From Nitrospira sp. (GTDB lineage Bacteria > Nitrospirota > Nitrospiria > Nitrospirales > Nitrospiraceae), in the NCBI GenBank assembly GCA_005116965.1, contig SWDG01000026.1, positions 110,764 to 142,926 on the forward strand: DNA of 32,163 nt, in the 5' to 3' direction. Of the stretch, positions 21,745-30,793 are shown piece by piece. The notes beneath the pieces were generated by a model. It worked only from the letters and a program-made list of their open reading frames with translations. It did not search any database and had not been told where the DNA came from. The first letter of the stretch is position 1; each line of letters starts with the position of its first letter. Made by a program: the position numbers and the translations under genes.

Positions 21745-22818
21745 TTAACTGAGATTTCGAACGATAGCTTCACCCATCTCCACAGTCCCGACAATCTTCG
21801 CTCCGGGACTCTGAATATCTTTGGTTCGATAGCCAAGGTCGAGGGTTTTCACGATGGCCTGTTCGATGGCTTCCGCTTCTTGATCGAGCTGAAAGGCATA
21901 CGACAGCATCATGGCGACCGATGAAATCGTGGCGATGGGGTTCGCGATATTTTTCCCTGCGATGTCCGGGGCGCTCCCGTGAATCGGCTCAAAGAGGCCG
22001 ACCTTGGCCCCGATACTCGCCGACGGCAACATCCCGATCGAGCCAGTCAGCATCGCCGCTTCATCGCTCAGAATGTCTCCGAACATATTATTGCAGAGCA
22101 GTACGTCAAATTGTCGGGGATTCCGCACCAGTTGCATGGCAGCGTTATCCACATAGATATGTCCCAGTTCAACGTCCGGATAGGACGCATGGACGTCGAT
22201 GACCACCTTGCGCCATAGTTCGGATGATTCCAACACATTCGCTTTGTCGACCGAGGTGACTTTCTTGCGCCGTTTCCGCGCCGCCTCGAACGCAACCTTG
22301 GCAATCCGCCTCACTTCCTCCGTCGTATACACTTCCGTATTGACCCCTCGCTCTTCGCCGTTCGGCAACTTTTCGATCCCTTTTGGTTTGCCAAAGTAAA
22401 TCCCGCCGGTGAGCTCGCGGATTACGAGGATATCGATCCCCTCAACCACCTCACGCTTCAATGTGGATGCATCCACCAAATTCGCATAGAGCTTCGCCGG
22501 CCTCAAGTTGGCATAGAGTCCTAAGGCTTCCCGGATTCCGAGCAGCGCGCGCTCCGGCCGCAGACTGTACTCCAAACTCTCCCATCGAGGCCCCCCGACG
22601 GCGCCCAGCAAGACGGCATCGCTTTGCTTGGCAAGCGCCAAGGTGTCCTTCGGCAGCGGCACGCCAAACTTGTCGATCGCCTGCCCGCCGATATCAGCGG
22701 ACGTAAACTCGAATGAATGTCCATATTTCTCTGCGATCACCTTCAAAACCTTTACGGCTTCAGGAACGATCTCTCGCCCCACTCCGTCCCCGGCCAACAC
22801 TGCAATCTTGGCCTTCAC
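21745..22818 (-). CDS. leuB: 3-isopropylmalate dehydrogenase
   Basis: A 357-residue enzyme that oxidises and decarboxylates 3-isopropylmalate to 2-oxoisocaproate with NAD+, the third step of leucine synthesis. Seen: [15 protein letters not shown] at the N-terminus, [12 protein letters not shown], the substrate-binding [38 protein letters not shown], the metal-binding VDNAAMQL and [23 protein letters not shown], and the cofactor loop [18 protein letters not shown]. The start is a GTG at 22818 with AAAGGAG upstream. It follows the cupin gene by 35 bases. leuC and leuD, needed for the step between leuA and leuB, are not in the window. Confidence 0.97.
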
Positions 22819-23281: not shown

Positions 23282-24829
23282 TCAAATCAAGTTCACCTTC
23301 TGCTCGCCCTGCGCCTGTTTCGTCCCCAGGTAGGCCAGCTTATTCAGGGCGCTGATATAGGCTCGAGCAGACGCCGTAATGATATCAGTATCGGCGCCGT
23401 GGCCTGTGACTGTCCGGCCATCTTCTTGAACCCGCACCGACACTTCACCCTGTGCATCTGTTCCACCGGTGATGGCCTTCACGACATACATCAGCAACTT
23501 GCTCTTCGTCTGTATCATGGCCGCAATCGTGCGGTACACGGCATCCACCGGCCCATCGCCGGTCCCGGTTTGAACGATGGAGGTGCCGTCGATTTCCAGT
23601 TCGACCGTGGCTGTTGGAACCCGATCCGTTCCACTCGATACTTGGAGTCCTTTGAGCCCAATGCGCTCGGCCATCTTCGACAACTCTTCGGAGACAATGA
23701 CCTCAAGATCTTCCTCGAAGATCTCTTTCTTTTGGTCGGCGAGTTTTTTGAACCGCTCGAAGGCGTGGTTGACCTCTGCCTCGCCGAGCGTATACCCCAA
23801 CTCTTCTAGACGCTGCCGAAACGCATGGCGCCCAGACAACTTGCCCATCACCATCTGGCTTTCGACCAATCCGATCGATTCCGGGCGCATAATTTCATAG
23901 GTCGTCTTCTCTTTGAGCAAACCATCCTGATGAATGCCCGACGTATGGGCAAAGGCGTTTGCCCCGACGATCGCCTTATTGGGTTGCACCACCATCCCCG
24001 TGATCTTGCTGACCAGACGACTGGTCTTCGCAATCTCCTCGGTTCGAATACGAGTATCCGCCTGATAGAAATCGGTTCTGGTGCGGAGTCCCATCACGAT
24101 TTCTTCCAGGGAGGTGTTACCAGCGCGCTCACCGATTCCGTTGATCGTACATTCCACTTGGCCGGCCCCATTCATAATTGCCGCCAAGCTGTTCCCCACC
24201 GCAACCCCCAGATCGTTGTGGCAATGAACCGAAATCACGGCTTGTGTGGCATTGGGGACCTTGTCGCAAATCCCCCTGATCAGTGCGCCGAATTCTTGTG
24301 GGACGGCGTACCCTACCGTGTCAGGAATATTCACAGTGCTGGCTCCGGCGGCGATGACCGCCTCAATGACCTCGTAGAGAAACGAGGGATCTGATCGGCT
24401 CGCATCCATTGGAGAAAATTCGACATCCTCCACATAACCCCGCGCCCGCTGAACCATCTCCACGGCACGCTGCTTGGCTTGCTCTCGTGTCATCCGAAAC
24501 TGGTGCGTCAGATGAATATCGGACGTTGACAAGAACGTATGGATGCGGACTTTCGGCGCGCCTTTCAACGCCTCCCATGCTCGATCGATATCTTCGGGTC
24601 GAGCCCGTGCCAAACTGCAGATCGTCGGTCCTTCGACCTCCTGCGCGATACGCCGCACCGCTTCAAAGTCTCCGGGCGAGCTATAGGCAAATCCCGCCTC
24701 AATAATATCGACACCGAGCCGGGCCAGTTGTTTGGCGACCATGACCTTTTCTTCCACGTTCATACTAGCGCCAGGCGATTGTTCGCCATCTCTCAAGGTC
24801 GTATCAAAAATTCTGATCATGCGTGCCAT
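23282..24829 (-). CDS. leuA: 2-isopropylmalate synthase
   Basis: A 515-residue enzyme that condenses acetyl-CoA with 2-oxoisovalerate, the committed step of leucine synthesis. The catalytic TIM barrel begins [19 protein letters not shown] and includes [24 protein letters not shown] and the metal-binding [18 protein letters not shown], then [15 protein letters not shown]. The subdomain block [15 protein letters not shown] is present. The C-terminal region (from about residue 390) is the LeuA allosteric dimer domain that binds leucine for feedback inhibition, so it is the long, regulated form. The start at 24829 has GGAGG six bases upstream; the longer open frame upstream is the 124-bp repeat. 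Expression is expected to be set by the T-box upstream. Confidence 0.97.
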
Positions 24830-24844
24830 GGTTGACCTCCGATG

Positions 24845-24968
24845 CAAGCTGCTCAAAAAGTCCTTCCGGCAAGGCCGCAAGGAGTGAGAGCCCCGAGGCG
24901 TACGCGTGTGGTACGCTGAGGGGTTTGAACGACTGAGAACGCAGAGGGAAAGCTTTTTCAGCAGCTTG
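24845..24968. repeat. 124-bp inverted-repeat element (MITE/REP-like) between T-box and leuA
   Basis: The element is bounded by nearly perfect terminal inverted repeats: CAAGCTGCTCAAAAAG at 24845-24860 and, read from the other end, CAAGCTGCTGAAAAAG at 24968-24953 (one mismatch). The inside is also self-complementary: around 24892-24923 a hairpin pairs CCCC/GGGG and GCGTAC/GTACGC. No coding capacity is seen. From memory it resembles a short interspersed repeat common in Nitrospira and related genomes, with a GTACGC centre and TTTTTCAGCAGC ends; I cannot confirm copies here, and no second copy is in this window. It sits directly between the T-box terminator T-run and the leuA ribosome-binding site. 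Confidence 0.75.
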
Positions 24969-24969
24969 T

Positions 24970-25016
24970 AAAAAGACAAAAGCCTCCATCCCTATGAGAC
25001 CCAGGGACGAAGGCTT
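24970..25016 (-). terminator. Intrinsic terminator of the leuA T-box
   Basis: AAGCCT-TCG-TCCCT (25016-25003), a nine-base loop, then AGGGA-TGG-AGGCTT (24993-24980), followed by TTGTCTTTTT (24979-24970). Two strong stem blocks flank a 3x3 internal loop. The TCCCT strand is the same one needed for the antiterminator, so the two structures exclude each other, as in classical T-boxes. It would also end transcripts coming from pssA. Confidence 0.9.
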
Positions 25017-25250
25017 GACGCACTCCGTGGTACCACCCTGATGTGGCCTGATGACCAACTGGTCGTCAGACCCTTCATTCAGCCTCTTACGGAGGCAAGG
25101 CGGAATCTCCTACTTCATGTTCGGAGATTCGGCTCAGAGGCGAGTTCGGCGACATCTAGGCTGGTTTGCACCACCCACCAGCTCTCTTCACAACACTTAC
25201 CGCCCCGTGTCTAGATGGCTCGCGTACTACTCCTCGTCTTAGCCGTTCAC
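24970..25250 (-). promoter_or_regulatory. T-box riboswitch (tRNA-Leu sensing) controlling leuA
   Basis: All parts of a transcriptional T-box are visible on the minus strand. Stem I starts with GGCT (25244-25241) and closes with AGCC (25134-25131), with a bulged AAGACG in its base like the usual K-turn. AGTA (25231-25228) and AGAGAGCTGG (about 25187-25178) are the S-turn-like and distal conserved motifs. The specifier is most likely CTC (25144-25142), preceded by GAA and followed by G, a leucine codon. Stem II is a perfect 8-bp hairpin (25130-25103), IIA/B lies at about 25096-25082 and stem III at 25069-25048. The T-box is AGGGTGGTACCACGG (25039-25025); its TGGT (25035-25032) matches the ACCA end of tRNA-Leu. 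AGGG can pair with TCCCT (25007-25003) to form the antiterminator. Uncharged tRNA-Leu should turn leuA on. Confidence 0.92.
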
Positions 25251-25284: not shown

Positions 25285-26091
25285 TTATGAATTGGATTCG
25301 ATCGGCGGAGGCTCGACTTTTCCCATGCTCTTTTTCCCAGCTGCCGGAGCAACCAGCGAAAAGACTTTTTCGACCGGTCCCATCAATGCATAGCCGGCAA
25401 AGATGACAAATAACATGACCGCCGGCCAGGCTGCCACCAGCATCAGCGTCAGAATACCCCAGACCAGGTAGGTAATCTGCCGGTGGCCCTTAAATTTCAG
25501 CTCCTTAAAGGAGCGATACTTGATCGTGCTGACCATTAAAAACGAAAGCGCCAACGTCATGAGCAGGACCACAATCGGCCTGACATCGCCTCCCATCTTG
25601 AGGAGGTAATGATCAAAGACCACCAGCGACGCCACCACCCCGGCCGCGGCTGGGATCGCGAGACCAGTAAAGTACTTCCCATCTGCTAGCGCTACGGTAG
25701 AGTTGAATCGTGCTAATCGCACGGCGCCCATGGCCACGTAGGCAAACATCACGGCCACGCCAAACGTACCTTGCCCGCTTAACGCCCAGGAGTAGATCAA
25801 CAAACCCGGTGCGACTCCGAATGACACCACATCGGACAGCGAGTCATACTCCAGCCCGAACTGACTCGTACTATTGGTCAATCTGGCCGACTTGCCATCC
25901 AATACGTCAAAAATCATAGCGACAAGAATCGCGATGGCGGCTTCCAGATAGTGACCGTTAAAAACGGACAGGATGGCAAACACGCCGCAAAATAAGTTAC
26001 CGGTCGTGAAGAGGTTTGGAATGAGGTGCATGGCGGCTTTCCGCCGTTTCCCATCTTTCCCGAAGGAATTTTTGAAGCCTGCCGTTTTCAT
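25285..26091 (-). CDS. pssA: CDP-diacylglycerol-serine O-phosphatidyltransferase (phosphatidylserine synthase)
   Basis: A 268-residue inner-membrane enzyme that makes phosphatidylserine from CDP-diacylglycerol and serine. It belongs to the membrane-bound (type II, Bacillus-like) class: several helices and the CDP-alcohol phosphotransferase motif, with Asp65-Gly66, Ala69-Arg70, Gly79, Asp83 and Asp87 all at the canonical spacing. Length fits this class. The ATG overlaps the psd stop as ATGA, so it is coupled to the next enzyme in the pathway. Its C-terminal tail is polar. The T-box of leuA begins about 35 bases after its stop codon. Confidence 0.95.
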   Translation of the reverse strand: MKTAGFKNSFGKDGKRRKAAMHLIPNLFTTGNLFCGVFAILSVFNGHYLEAAIAILVAMIFDVLDGKSARLTNSTSQFGLEYDSLSDVVSFGVAPGLLIYSWALSGQGTFGVAVMFAYVAMGAVRLARFNSTVALADGKYFTGLAIPAAAGVVASLVVFDHYLLKMGGDVRPIVVLLMTLALSFLMVSTIKYRSFKELKFKGHRQITYLVWGILTLMLVAAWPAVMLFVIFAGYALMGPVEKVFSLVAPAAGKKSMGKVEPPPIESNS

Positions 26092-26738
26092 GGCAACTCT
26101 CCAATAATGGTTTCGCCGCCTTTTACACGATCACCCACCGCCACCCGAATCTTCGTACCCATCGGAAGGAACGTATCCATGCGCGACCCAAACCGGATCA
26201 AGCCATATCGTTCACCACGTATCGCCTGCTCCCGATCCGAGATCCAACAGACGATGCGCCGAGCAATCAGCCCCGCGACTTGCACGCACAACACTTTGAT
26301 CCCGTCGTGCGTCTTGATCATCACGGCGTTCTGTTCGTTCCTCAGCGTTGCCTCCGGCTTGCTCGCAACCAAAAACATCCCCGGCTGATACTGAACACCT
26401 TCAATGACGCCATCACAAGGCATACGATTGATGTGGACATCGAAGACATTCAAAAAGATCGTGAGCCTGACACTACGCTCCTTCAGGTAGCGAGGCTCAA
26501 ACTCTTCCTCGATGGCGATCACCTTGCCATCGCCGGGTGCAACAATCAGATTGGAACCTTGTGGGATCACCCGGGCCGGGTTGCGAAAGAACCAGGCAGA
26601 GAACAGCGTTGCAATCCCACCAAGAAACGCAACGACCGGCCACCCCAGCCATGCAGTCAAGAGTGTAACGCCGGCAGGAACTACGATGAAGGGAATTCCT
26701 TCTTTGGCAAAGGGAACACCGACCGCACGATCCGCCAT
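26088..26738 (-). CDS. psd: Phosphatidylserine decarboxylase proenzyme
   Basis: A 216-residue proenzyme of the short (PSD-A, Bacillus/archaeal-like) type that makes phosphatidylethanolamine. Two N-terminal hydrophobic helices (about residues 15-50) anchor it. Conserved blocks are FFRNPARVIP, IVAPGDGKV (Asp70), FLNVFDVHINRMP (His102) and the self-cleavage site RFGSRMD, where Ser185 becomes the pyruvoyl group; Asp70, His102 and Ser185 fit the usual triad. The start has GAGG eight bases upstream. It lies nine bases after ilvC and overlaps pssA, so membrane-lipid and branched-chain amino acid genes share a transcript. Confidence 0.95.
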   Translation of the reverse strand: MADRAVGVPFAKEGIPFIVVPAGVTLLTAWLGWPVVAFLGGIATLFSAWFFRNPARVIPQGSNLIVAPGDGKVIAIEEEFEPRYLKERSVRLTIFLNVFDVHINRMPCDGVIEGVQYQPGMFLVASKPEATLRNEQNAVMIKTHDGIKVLCVQVAGLIARRIVCWISDREQAIRGERYGLIRFGSRMDTFLPMGTKIRVAVGDRVKGGETIIGELP

Positions 26739-26747
26739 GGAATTGCC

Positions 26748-27776
<1,029 letters not shown>

Positions 27777-27819: not shown

Positions 27820-28338
27820 TTAGTCGCGGGCAACCTTCTTCGTTTGGACAGCAGCGGGACGGGCCGGTTCCCGAGCAACGGCCACGCGCCCAGTGCGGAC
27901 CAAGTCCTTGATCCCAAGAGGCTGCAACAAATTGATGATTGCCTCAATCTTCTTGGGATCGCCGGATACTTCGATCGTGTAGGTGCTCGGCGTCGAATCA
28001 ATCACGTTTGCCCGGAAAATATCTACAATTCTGAGCGCCTCAGCCCGATCCGCATCCTTCGTATGCACTTTGATAATCGCCGTCTCCCGTGAAACAAACT
28101 CTGTTTCGTTCAAATCCACGACCTTGATGACATCGATGAGTTTGTTCAGCTGTTTCACGATCTGCTCGATGATTCGCTCGTCACCCGACGTCACAATCGT
28201 CATCTGAGACATGGATGAATCAAGCGTCGGAGCGACTGACAGGCTCTCGATATTGAACCCACGGCCGCTGAATAATCCCGCAACCCGTGACAAGACTCCA
28301 AATTTATTTTCAACTGTGACTGAAATAATATGTTCCAT
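27820..28338 (-). CDS. ilvH: Acetolactate synthase small (regulatory) subunit
   Basis: A 172-residue regulatory subunit that activates IlvB and confers valine feedback inhibition. The N-terminal ACT domain (about 3-76) reads ISVTVENKFGVLSRVAGLFSGRGFNIESLSVAPT, the textbook IlvH/IlvN start. The second half (FVSRETAIIKVHTK, IVDIFRANVIDSTPSTYTIEVSGDPKKIEAIINLLQPLGI) is the C-terminal small-subunit domain. It lies 39 bases downstream of ilvB, as usual. The ribosome-binding site is weak, so translation may be coupled to ilvB. Confidence 0.96.
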   Translation of the reverse strand: MEHIISVTVENKFGVLSRVAGLFSGRGFNIESLSVAPTLDSSMSQMTIVTSGDERIIEQIVKQLNKLIDVIKVVDLNETEFVSRETAIIKVHTKDADRAEALRIVDIFRANVIDSTPSTYTIEVSGDPKKIEAIINLLQPLGIKDLVRTGRVAVAREPARPAAVQTKKVARD

Positions 28339-28377: not shown

Positions 28378-30153
28378 CTATGCCGTGAGGACCGTATCTT
28401 TATCCTCCGGCGTCACTTTTCCCGCACCTGCCTGCTTCTTCTTCAACTCCGGTGGATCTTCCAGGAGCATCTCGTGGTTGCAGCCTCCAGCCGGGATCAT
28501 CGGATAACAATTCTCATAGGGATAGGTCGGCACATCCACGATGACGGGTTTATCAGTCGCCATCGCTTCTTTCAGGACGGCATCAAGGTCTCCGACCTTC
28601 TTGACCCGCAATCCCACCGCTCCATAGGCATCCGCCAGTTTGACGAAATCCGGCGTCGTACCAAGATCGCTTGACGCGTAGCGCCCTTCGTAGAATAGGT
28701 CCTGCCATTGGCGGACCATGCCATGAAATCCATTGTTGAGAATAATAATCTTCACCGGCAACTTGCTCACCACAGCTGTGGCCATTTCCTGCATGTTCAT
28801 CTGAATGCTGCCGTCTCCCGCAATGCATAGGACCAGGCGATCCCGGAACGCCGCCTGCGCACCCATCGCAGCGGGAAATCCAAACCCCATCGTGCCAAGT
28901 CCGCCTGACGTCAGCCATCGATTCGGCTTCGCTAACTTGAAATATTGTGCCGCCCACATTTGGTGCTGGCCGACGTCCGTTGAGACAATCGGATCCCGGT
29001 CCCTGGTCAGTTCATACAGCCGCTTGACCACCTGCTGCGGCTTGATCGGTCCATCCTTCTCTTGGTGATACGTCAAGGGATGGGCCTGCTGCCATTCTTG
29101 AATTTGATCCCACCAGGGCTTGCGAAGCTCTTTCTGCTCCCCATTGACTGTTGCGCGCAAGATTTGATTGAACTCACGGAGTACGTTCTTACAGTCACCC
29201 ACAATCGGAATATCGACATTGATGTTTTTCCGAATGGAGGTTGGGTCGATATCGACATGAATCACTTTGGCGTAAGGACAAAACTCCGACGGCTTCCCCG
29301 TCACCCGATCATCAAACCGTGCGCCGATGGCAATCACCAGATCGGAGTAATGCATGGCCATGTTTGCCTGATAGGTCCCGTGCATACCCAGCATCCCGAG
29401 GGATAACGGATGCTCTCCTGGAAACGCGCCTAGCCCCATCAACGTCATGTCCACCGGGATCTGTGTCATCTCGGCGAGCTCAAGCAATTCCTGTGAGGCA
29501 CTCGAAAAGATCACGCCACCGCCGACATACAGAATCGGCTTCTTGGCCTTCATGATCGCTTCGGCGGCCTGTTTGATCTGCCATTTATTTCCTTCGTAAG
29601 TCGGGTTGTACCCTCGAATCGAGACCGAGTTCGGATAGGTGAATTCCGCTTTCGCCATCGAGACATCTTTCGGAATATCCACCAAGACCGGGCCCGGACG
29701 ACCGGTCGTCGCAATATAAAACGCCTCTTTGATCGTGGCCGCCAAGTCGTTCACGTCCTTGACCAGAAAATTGTACTTTGTGCAGGGTCGGCTCAACCCG
29801 ATGTTGTCGGCCTCCTGAAAGGCATCGTTCCCGATCATACTCGTCGGGACTTGGCCGCTGAAACAGACCATAGGAACGGAATCCATATAGGCATCAGCTA
29901 ATGCCGTAATGACGTTGGTCATGCCGGGTCCGGAGGTGACCAGACAGACGCCTGCCTTTCCAGTCGCCTTGGCATAGCCCTCCGCCATATGGCCCGCGCC
30001 CTGCTCATGGCGTGTCAGGATGACTTCAACATCTTTCTGCTGGTAGAGTATATCGAAAATCTTCAGGACGACTCCGCCGGGAAGCGCAAAGACAGTCTTG
30101 ACTCCTTCCCGCTTCAGGCATTCGATGAAGATTTCAGCACCGGTGAGTTTCAT
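28378..30153 (-). CDS. ilvB: Acetolactate synthase large (catalytic) subunit
   Basis: A 591-residue ThDP-dependent enzyme that joins two pyruvates to acetolactate, or pyruvate and 2-oxobutyrate to acetohydroxybutyrate. The N-terminal ThDP pyrimidine domain has the catalytic Glu50 in TRHEQGAGHMAEGYA, followed by GPGMTN. The central FAD-type domain has GARFDDRVTGK. The C-terminal domain has the ThDP diphosphate motif starting IAGDGSIQMNMQE and continuing to ILNNGFHGMVRQWQ, where the Trp is usual for acetohydroxyacid synthase. The ribosome-binding site GGGAGGG is strong. A good promoter lies about 130 bases upstream and no terminator-like leader is seen. It heads the ilvBHC-psd-pssA run. Confidence 0.97.
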   Translation of the reverse strand: MKLTGAEIFIECLKREGVKTVFALPGGVVLKIFDILYQQKDVEVILTRHEQGAGHMAEGYAKATGKAGVCLVTSGPGMTNVITALADAYMDSVPMVCFSGQVPTSMIGNDAFQEADNIGLSRPCTKYNFLVKDVNDLAATIKEAFYIATTGRPGPVLVDIPKDVSMAKAEFTYPNSVSIRGYNPTYEGNKWQIKQAAEAIMKAKKPILYVGGGVIFSSASQELLELAEMTQIPVDMTLMGLGAFPGEHPLSLGMLGMHGTYQANMAMHYSDLVIAIGARFDDRVTGKPSEFCPYAKVIHVDIDPTSIRKNINVDIPIVGDCKNVLREFNQILRATVNGEQKELRKPWWDQIQEWQQAHPLTYHQEKDGPIKPQQVVKRLYELTRDRDPIVSTDVGQHQMWAAQYFKLAKPNRWLTSGGLGTMGFGFPAAMGAQAAFRDRLVLCIAGDGSIQMNMQEMATAVVSKLPVKIIILNNGFHGMVRQWQDLFYEGRYASSDLGTTPDFVKLADAYGAVGLRVKKVGDLDAVLKEAMATDKPVIVDVPTYPYENCYPMIPAGGCNHEMLLEDPPELKKKQAGAGKVTPEDKDTVLTA

Positions 30154-30360: not shown

Positions 30361-30793
30361 CGTGAGCGGAAGACCTATAAGCCGGATTCTGTCCCGCAAA
30401 GAAGTTGCCCTCTTTGCTTGGATGATCATTTCTCTGGGATTCGAGTTACCTCGAACCTCAAGCGACCTACCCGAAGACCTCGACCGGGCCAGCCGGTGCA
30501 CAACAGTCCGTGAGGAGCGCTGCACATGTCTTCCTATTTGGCCTTGCACCAGGCGACGCTTACCGTGCCGGTGATGTCGCCACCCCCGCGGTGGGCTCTT
30601 ACCCCACCGTTTCACCCTTACCTGAGCCGCAGCGACCAGATGGAATCCCGTCGCGTTGGCCATCGGCGGTTTGTTTTCTGTGGTGCTGGTGTCGGATTGC
30701 TCCGCCTGGGAGTTACCCAGCGCCCTGCCCATGGAGTCCGGACTTTCCTCTCGATACCGAAGCACCGAGCGACCATCCAGTCTTCCACCCACG
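30361..30793 (-). ncRNA. rnpB: RNase P RNA (M1-type, bacterial class A)
   Basis: The ribozyme subunit of RNase P, which trims tRNA 5' ends. On the minus strand the 5' and 3' ends pair to form P1 (CGTG..GGAAGAC with GTCTTCC..CACG). The conserved regions are all present: GAGGAAAGTCCGGACTCC near the 5' end, AGGTAAGGGTGAAACGGTGGGGTAAGAGCCCACCG in the middle (about 30635-30585), and CCCAGAGAAATGATC followed by GACAGAATCCGGCTTATAGG at the 3' end (30391-30372). Its length of about 430 bases is typical of type A. Ends are set from P1 pairing and the promoter, accurate to a few bases. No clear U-run terminator follows, so transcripts may read towards ilvB. Confidence 0.95.

Follow-up and report, generated by a model that had tools for sequence, protein, structure and literature searches.

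The DNA between pssA and leuA in a 32,163-nucleotide stretch of a Nitrospira sp. genome (contig SWDG01000026.1; the whole stretch is referred to as the window) holds a complete tRNA-Leu T-box leader, which can be read directly on the minus strand from 25244 to 24970. We assign this element, with a probability of about 95%, as a tRNA-Leu T-box riboswitch of class I (transcriptional) with leuA under its control. The initial annotation had placed such an element at 24970-25250, upstream of leuA in a Nitrospira-like host. The host holds and the coordinates are correct within a few bases; every part named there (stem I with a CTC specifier, stem II, IIA/B, stem III, T-box, antiterminator and terminator) was found on the minus strand, and the T-box call itself is borne out by an end-to-end match to the Rfam model RF00230, by covariation and by conservation in relatives.

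With the score threshold lifted for the leuA leader, RF00230 aligned over positions 1-219 of 219 at 25249-25000 (minus strand), a significant match (87.9 bits, E 7.1e-20) that an Rfam scan at the gathering threshold misses, the score lying about 5 bits short of the gathering score of 93. The default Rfam scan of the window lists RNase P alone (bacterial class A RNA, 288 bits, 30362-30788, minus strand). The shortfall of the T-box match goes with a stem I hairpin of about 20 nt, which the model takes as an insertion, and the gathering score is exceeded by the orthologous leuA T-box in 36 of 79 congeneric genomes. That score is a curation cut-off and not a biological property, and the shortfall in the window is not the failure of a defining feature. 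The sequence-level defining features tested were all found, save for the curated cut-off in the window genome and with IIA/B scored as a plain hairpin; the element belongs to the class I T-boxes, a known family. A genome-wide search returned a single RF00230 copy, in the leuA leader, and no second T-box.

The leader lies within a minus-strand run of genes in the order ilvB-ilvN-ilvC-psd-pssA-[T-box]-leuA-small ORF-leuB-beta-propeller-like protein-asd, with the following assignments:

28378-30153, minus strand: ilvB (NCBIfam models)
27820-28338, minus strand: ilvN (NCBIfam models)
26748-27767, minus strand: ilvC (NCBIfam models)
26088-26738, minus strand: psd (NCBIfam models)
25285-26091, minus strand: pssA, last gene of the upstream run (TIGR00473, 125.6 bits, cut-off 107)
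23285-24829, minus strand: leuA, 2-isopropylmalate synthase of 515 aa, the controlled gene (NF002086, 803 bits, and TIGR00973, 741 bits, both above cut-off)
21745-22818, minus strand: leuB, downstream of leuA (TIGR00169, 527.7 bits)

The small ORF between leuA and leuB gave weak cupin-type matches at most, and leuB may belong to the transcript controlled by the T-box. A Shine-Dalgarno-like GGAGG precedes leuA within 24834-24841 (minus strand). In every locus with enough sequence, from two phyla, the T-box was located 72-821 nt upstream of leuA, in agreement with leuA as the annotated target.

The leader was divided into the following parts:

25131-25244, minus strand: stem I (RF00230 alignment; fold -43.6 kcal/mol)
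25189-25209, minus strand: extra 21-nt hairpin in the 5' strand of stem I (alignment of relatives, predicted fold)
25160-25187, minus strand: distal stem I, the tRNA-elbow-binding module, AGAGAGCTGG..CCAGC (RF00230 alignment)
25142-25144, minus strand: specifier triplet CTC (Leu), partner of anticodon GAG (RF00230 alignment position)
25103-25130, minus strand: stem II with S-turn-type sequences GAA / AGTA (covariation)
25082-25096, minus strand: stem IIA/B region, GCCTC CGTAA GAGGC (RF00230 alignment position)
25045-25072, minus strand: stem III (covariation; fold -16.5 kcal/mol)
25003-25039, minus strand: T-box and antiterminator (direct reading, RF00230 alignment)
24970-25016, minus strand: intrinsic terminator, AAGCCTTCGTCCCT / AGGGATGGAGGCTT and T run (pairing in relatives, terminator scan)
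24846-24967, minus strand: 122-bp palindromic repeat between terminator and leuA, outside the switch, with ends AAGCTGCTGAAAAAG / CTTTTTGAGCAGCTT

Stem I is closed at its base by GGCT/AGCC and continues into proximal, middle and distal helices; GAGG/CCTC adjoins a GA/K-turn-type stretch, and AGTAGTA faces the specifier loop. The T-box sequence AGGGTGGTACCACGG (consensus AGGGTGGNACCNCG) occupies 25039-25025 (minus strand) in a bulged antiterminator built from the helices AGGG/CCCT and CGGAG/CTTCG. The AA usual after stem III, a motif described in PMC7583486, is altered, reading GAATCAGGG in most relatives and ACATCAGGG in the window. The terminator-like site at 25016-24980 has 15 pairs and a T tail, the longest stem found in the region, and its 5' arm is the antiterminator 3' strand CTTCGTCCCT; antiterminator and terminator share this strand and are therefore mutually exclusive. 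Translational T-boxes do exist, as in actinobacterial ileS (PMC7583486), and a switch of that mode would mask the leuA ribosome-binding site, but this leader contains a terminator with a T run behind it, and over 120 nt, including a repeat element, separate the terminator from the Shine-Dalgarno-like site, which makes translational control extremely improbable here.

To evaluate the structure, 24 family members were aligned with the named T-box structure of 56 pairs, which was 92.8% paired with both-sided changes in 33 of the 56. Such changes filled 206 cells, where shuffling gave a mean of 69, and the covariation score of 0.448 compares with 0.201 in shuffles and no more than 0.114 after sliding the partners; because the covariation is strong, chance is excluded. 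Both-sided changes were found in 12 of 23 pairs of the stem I helices (88-100% paired), 3 of 5 pairs of the distal helix (100% paired), 6 of 8 pairs of stem II (99% of cells paired) and 10 of 11 pairs of stem III, and IIA/B, drawn as a hairpin with the pseudoknot left out of the model, was 80% paired. The terminator alternative passed the covariation test as well (95.2% of cells paired, three pairs with both-sided changes). Both antiterminator helices were 99-100% paired and nearly invariant, as expected for a T-box sequence, so that the evidence there is conservation and not covariation.

Leader-peptide attenuators control leucine operons elsewhere, and a terminator before leuA could in principle belong to one, responding to ribosome stalling at Leu codons. 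The covarying conserved parts are those of a T-box, however, among them the T-box bulge and the motif at the distal end of stem I; indels of many lengths among the aligned leaders argue against a conserved coding frame; and the leaders showed no string of Leu codons, the Leu triplet that is conserved being the specifier. A classical attenuator of this type is accordingly given almost no weight, and the conserved leader is read as a T-box.

The leucine specificity claimed from the CTC specifier was confirmed across the sampled loci: the triplet is CTC in 112 of 114 T-box loci (some genomes being counted twice) and CTG in the other two (L042 and L044), so that all 114 specify leucine. The CTG leaders would need tRNA-Leu(CAG). 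The window genome encodes tRNA-Leu genes with anticodons GAG, TAG, TAA, CAG and CAA, and the tRNA-Leu(GAG) gene encodes the ACCA end that matches the TGGT of the T-box bulge, as had been annotated. Polymerase arriving from upstream would transcribe stem I, whose specifier CUC would pair with the tRNA-Leu anticodon GAG, the tRNA being held by the tip of stem I and the S-turn of stem II. When this tRNA is uncharged, its free ACCA would pair with the UGGU of the bulge and stabilise the antiterminator AGGG..CCCU/CGGAG..CUUCG, and leuA would be transcribed; if it is charged or absent, the CUUCGUCCCU strand would pair with AGGGAUGGAGG and transcription would stop. Leucine shortage would in this way turn leucine synthesis on. 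What the sequence itself establishes is the anatomy, the covariation, the leucine specificity of codon and tRNA, the target, the exclusive hairpins and the conservation; tRNA binding, charge sensing and actual termination are inferred by analogy with the T-box family.

Stem I starts 40 nt past the pssA stop in the window and 0-6 nt past it in most other genera of the family, and a scan for sigma-70-type sites revealed no sigma-70-like promoter in the gap between pssA and stem I. Leaders of Geobacteraceae type and of the family f8 have TTGACA..TATTAT/CATAAT directly upstream. From the short or absent gap and the lack of a sigma-70-like site we infer an intra-operon switch in the window's family, probably acting on read-through from ilvBNC-psd-pssA or on transcripts starting inside pssA. 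A T-box in this position would set the output of leuA apart from that of the preceding genes.

The window and its closest relatives have a hairpin of 18-21 nt in the 5' strand of stem I, immediately ahead of the distal module. In other Nitrospira leaders (L080, L082, L084, L086-L089 and L091) this site is occupied by a multicopy palindrome some 110-130 nt in length, which is related to the 122-bp repeat between the window's terminator and leuA; the window's 21-nt hairpin may be a remnant of such a palindrome. The 122-bp repeat has 17 matches in the genome, seven of them covering most of the element, and occurs at the same place in several relatives. In predicted folds the stem I inserts are mostly self-closing; since they fold on themselves, stem I is predicted still to form.

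The inserted hairpin, the sub-threshold Rfam score and the altered AA after stem III could mean that the window carries a genuine T-box sequence whose function was lost through the insertion in stem I and the change beside stem III, and the sister family f2, described below, demonstrates that loss happens. Against such decay, the helices of the antiterminator are intact, as are the specifier, stem II and the terminator, a closed hairpin is predicted for the insertion, a set of related species retains hairpins or inserts there, and two Geobacteraceae-type leaders (L167 and L272) have a hairpin at the same place. We therefore regard a defunct switch as unlikely by a wide margin and the window's T-box as probably functional. 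Shortened variants were found in other families. The f8 leaders L067 and L068 have a stem I of about 50 nt in which the elbow-binding module is missing and keep stem II and the terminator; the f14 leaders L063 and L064 have an intact stem I and, from there to stem III, a much shortened stretch. In L063 the specifier lies 59 nt from the T-box and the stem II region is much reduced.

RF00230 matches were present in 75 of the 79 genomes of the genus, one in each save for two with a split or fragmentary extra match, and three of the four genomes without a match are less than 90% complete. The Nitrospirota sample gave matches in 94 of 296 genomes, distributed over the window's family f1 and some members of f5, f8, f13, f14 and f17, so that six families have T-box bearers, and not all of these families belong to the window's class; the listed f2 and f3 members had no RF00230 match. 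In Desulfobacterota, 15 of 345 genomes have a T-box, one each and before leuA. The Methylomirabilota sample yielded a match in one of 95 genomes (L276, 65.3 bits), where the next gene by eye is homocysteine-biosynthesis (DUF39-type)-like and not leuA. Another search of the phylum, built around a deltaproteobacterial genome, brought up genomes already found and none new. The parts of the leader are conserved in relatives, so that neither of the outcomes named in the initial annotation as refuting it, a missing RF00230 hit or a lack of such conservation, was observed. The initial annotation had called the T-box notable in this lineage, a claim to be toned down, as the element is the rule within its family and leuA T-boxes of the Gram-negative Geobacter and Pelobacter are published (PMC2494555, PMC2700814).

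A horizontal origin or common descent with the deltaproteobacterial system had also been proposed. Recent gain of the leuA-T-box unit from deltaproteobacteria of Geobacter type would account for the same target gene, the shared specifier loop GAACTCGCCT..GAGC and the shared gene order, and Nitrospirota and Geobacter-type T-boxes are mutually nearest in a tree of T-box DNA. A LeuA tree was built from 76 rows comprising Nitrospirota LeuA with and without a T-box and 17 Geobacteraceae-type LeuA. There the Nitrospirota proteins, T-box bearers and non-bearers alike, group together (98% SH-aLRT) and the 17 Geobacteraceae-type proteins fall in a separate supported part with deltaproteobacterial and proteobacterial LeuA, the Nitrospira LeuA not being nested inside Geobacterales. 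These separate positions indicate that leuA was not recently exchanged between Nitrospirota and the Geobacteraceae type. Taken with the spread of the T-box over six Nitrospirota families and with the relic left behind by its loss from one family, they leave a recent transfer of the leuA unit unsupported and, in our estimate, quite improbable.

That relic was detected in the sister family f2, in which leuA stands behind pssA and the T-box is absent. Upstream of leuA, four f2 loci (L137, L139, L145 and L147) have AGCCTTCGTCCC..GGGA.GAAGGCTTTTTT without an aptamer; the terminator arm AGCCTTCGTCCC lies at most 56 nt from leuA with one or two mismatches in 13 and is followed by a T run, and none of 200 shuffles was as good. 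T-box aptamer remnants beyond chance were not found in f2, the terminator arm being all that is left. The f2 terminator is best read, from its sequence, as the mark of loss from a T-box-bearing ancestor, and it may be a fossil or a reused attenuator.

The order ilvB-ilvN-ilvC-psd-pssA-leuA is common to Nitrospirota, Geobacter-type genomes and some further genomes that have no T-box. In the T-box DNA tree the Nitrospirota and Desulfobacterota T-boxes, nearest each other, are not cleanly apart from those of Firmicutes, and one long Firmicutes row is unresolved among them (p 0.41 when it is held outside), so that this tree cannot settle ancestry. Of the proposed common descent, old shared ancestry of the switch itself is compatible with the T-box tree and may hold. 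We tentatively suggest, as a scenario with rather less than even odds, that a single switch, already located in an ilvBNC-psd-pssA-leuA cluster before the phyla parted, gave rise to the leuA T-boxes of both Nitrospirota and Geobacteraceae-type Desulfobacterota, was lost many times since and, in Nitrospiraceae-type genomes, turned intra-operon, abutting the pssA stop, with a stem I tolerating mobile palindromes. A transfer in the distant past, or one of the short switch alone, is a plausible alternative to old common inheritance.

The switch is ordinary in kind and useful for its lineage and its natural variants. It makes tRNA-sensing control of leucine synthesis a stable family-wide trait in a Gram-negative group that includes nitrifiers (Nitrospira) and offers a well-sampled case of riboswitch retention, trimming, repeat invasion and loss; the f2 relic terminator and the gene order in common with Geobacter make it testable how old T-boxes are beyond the Gram-positives. 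The leuA T-box seems little described in Nitrospirota: the literature searched yielded no description of a T-box in Nitrospirota/Nitrospirae, which does not establish absence from print, and TBDB, built from public genomes (PMC7778990), may list some.

The closest known systems are the leuA T-boxes of Geobacter sulfurreducens, G. metallireducens and Pelobacter carbinolicus, reported in 2008-2009 (PMC2494555, PMC2700814), as the initial annotation had noted for deltaproteobacteria; tRNA-Leu GAG is named for the leuA T-box in PMC2700814. The Nitrospira switch shares with them the target, tRNA-Leu(GAG) specificity, stems I, II and III and the terminator; in the sample both have one T-box per genome, and part of the Geobacter group also has the order ilvB-ilvN-ilvC-psd-pssA-[T-box]-leuA. 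It differs in its Nitrospirota host, in the stem I of the window's family lying close behind the pssA stop without a promoter recognisable in a sigma-70-type scan, and in the palindromic repeats inside stem I of some Nitrospira. All model elements of the RF00230 class I T-boxes, which are transcriptional and mostly from Firmicutes, align in the window, although it scores 5 bits below the gathering score and has a 21-nt extra stem I hairpin absent from canonical T-boxes. Actinobacterial ileS T-boxes have a truncated stem I and act translationally (PMC7583486). The f8 leaders L067 and L068 resemble them in lacking the elbow-binding distal stem I and keeping stem II, yet retain an intrinsic terminator and a leucine specifier and precede leuA, whereas the window T-box differs from the ileS type in its full stem I.
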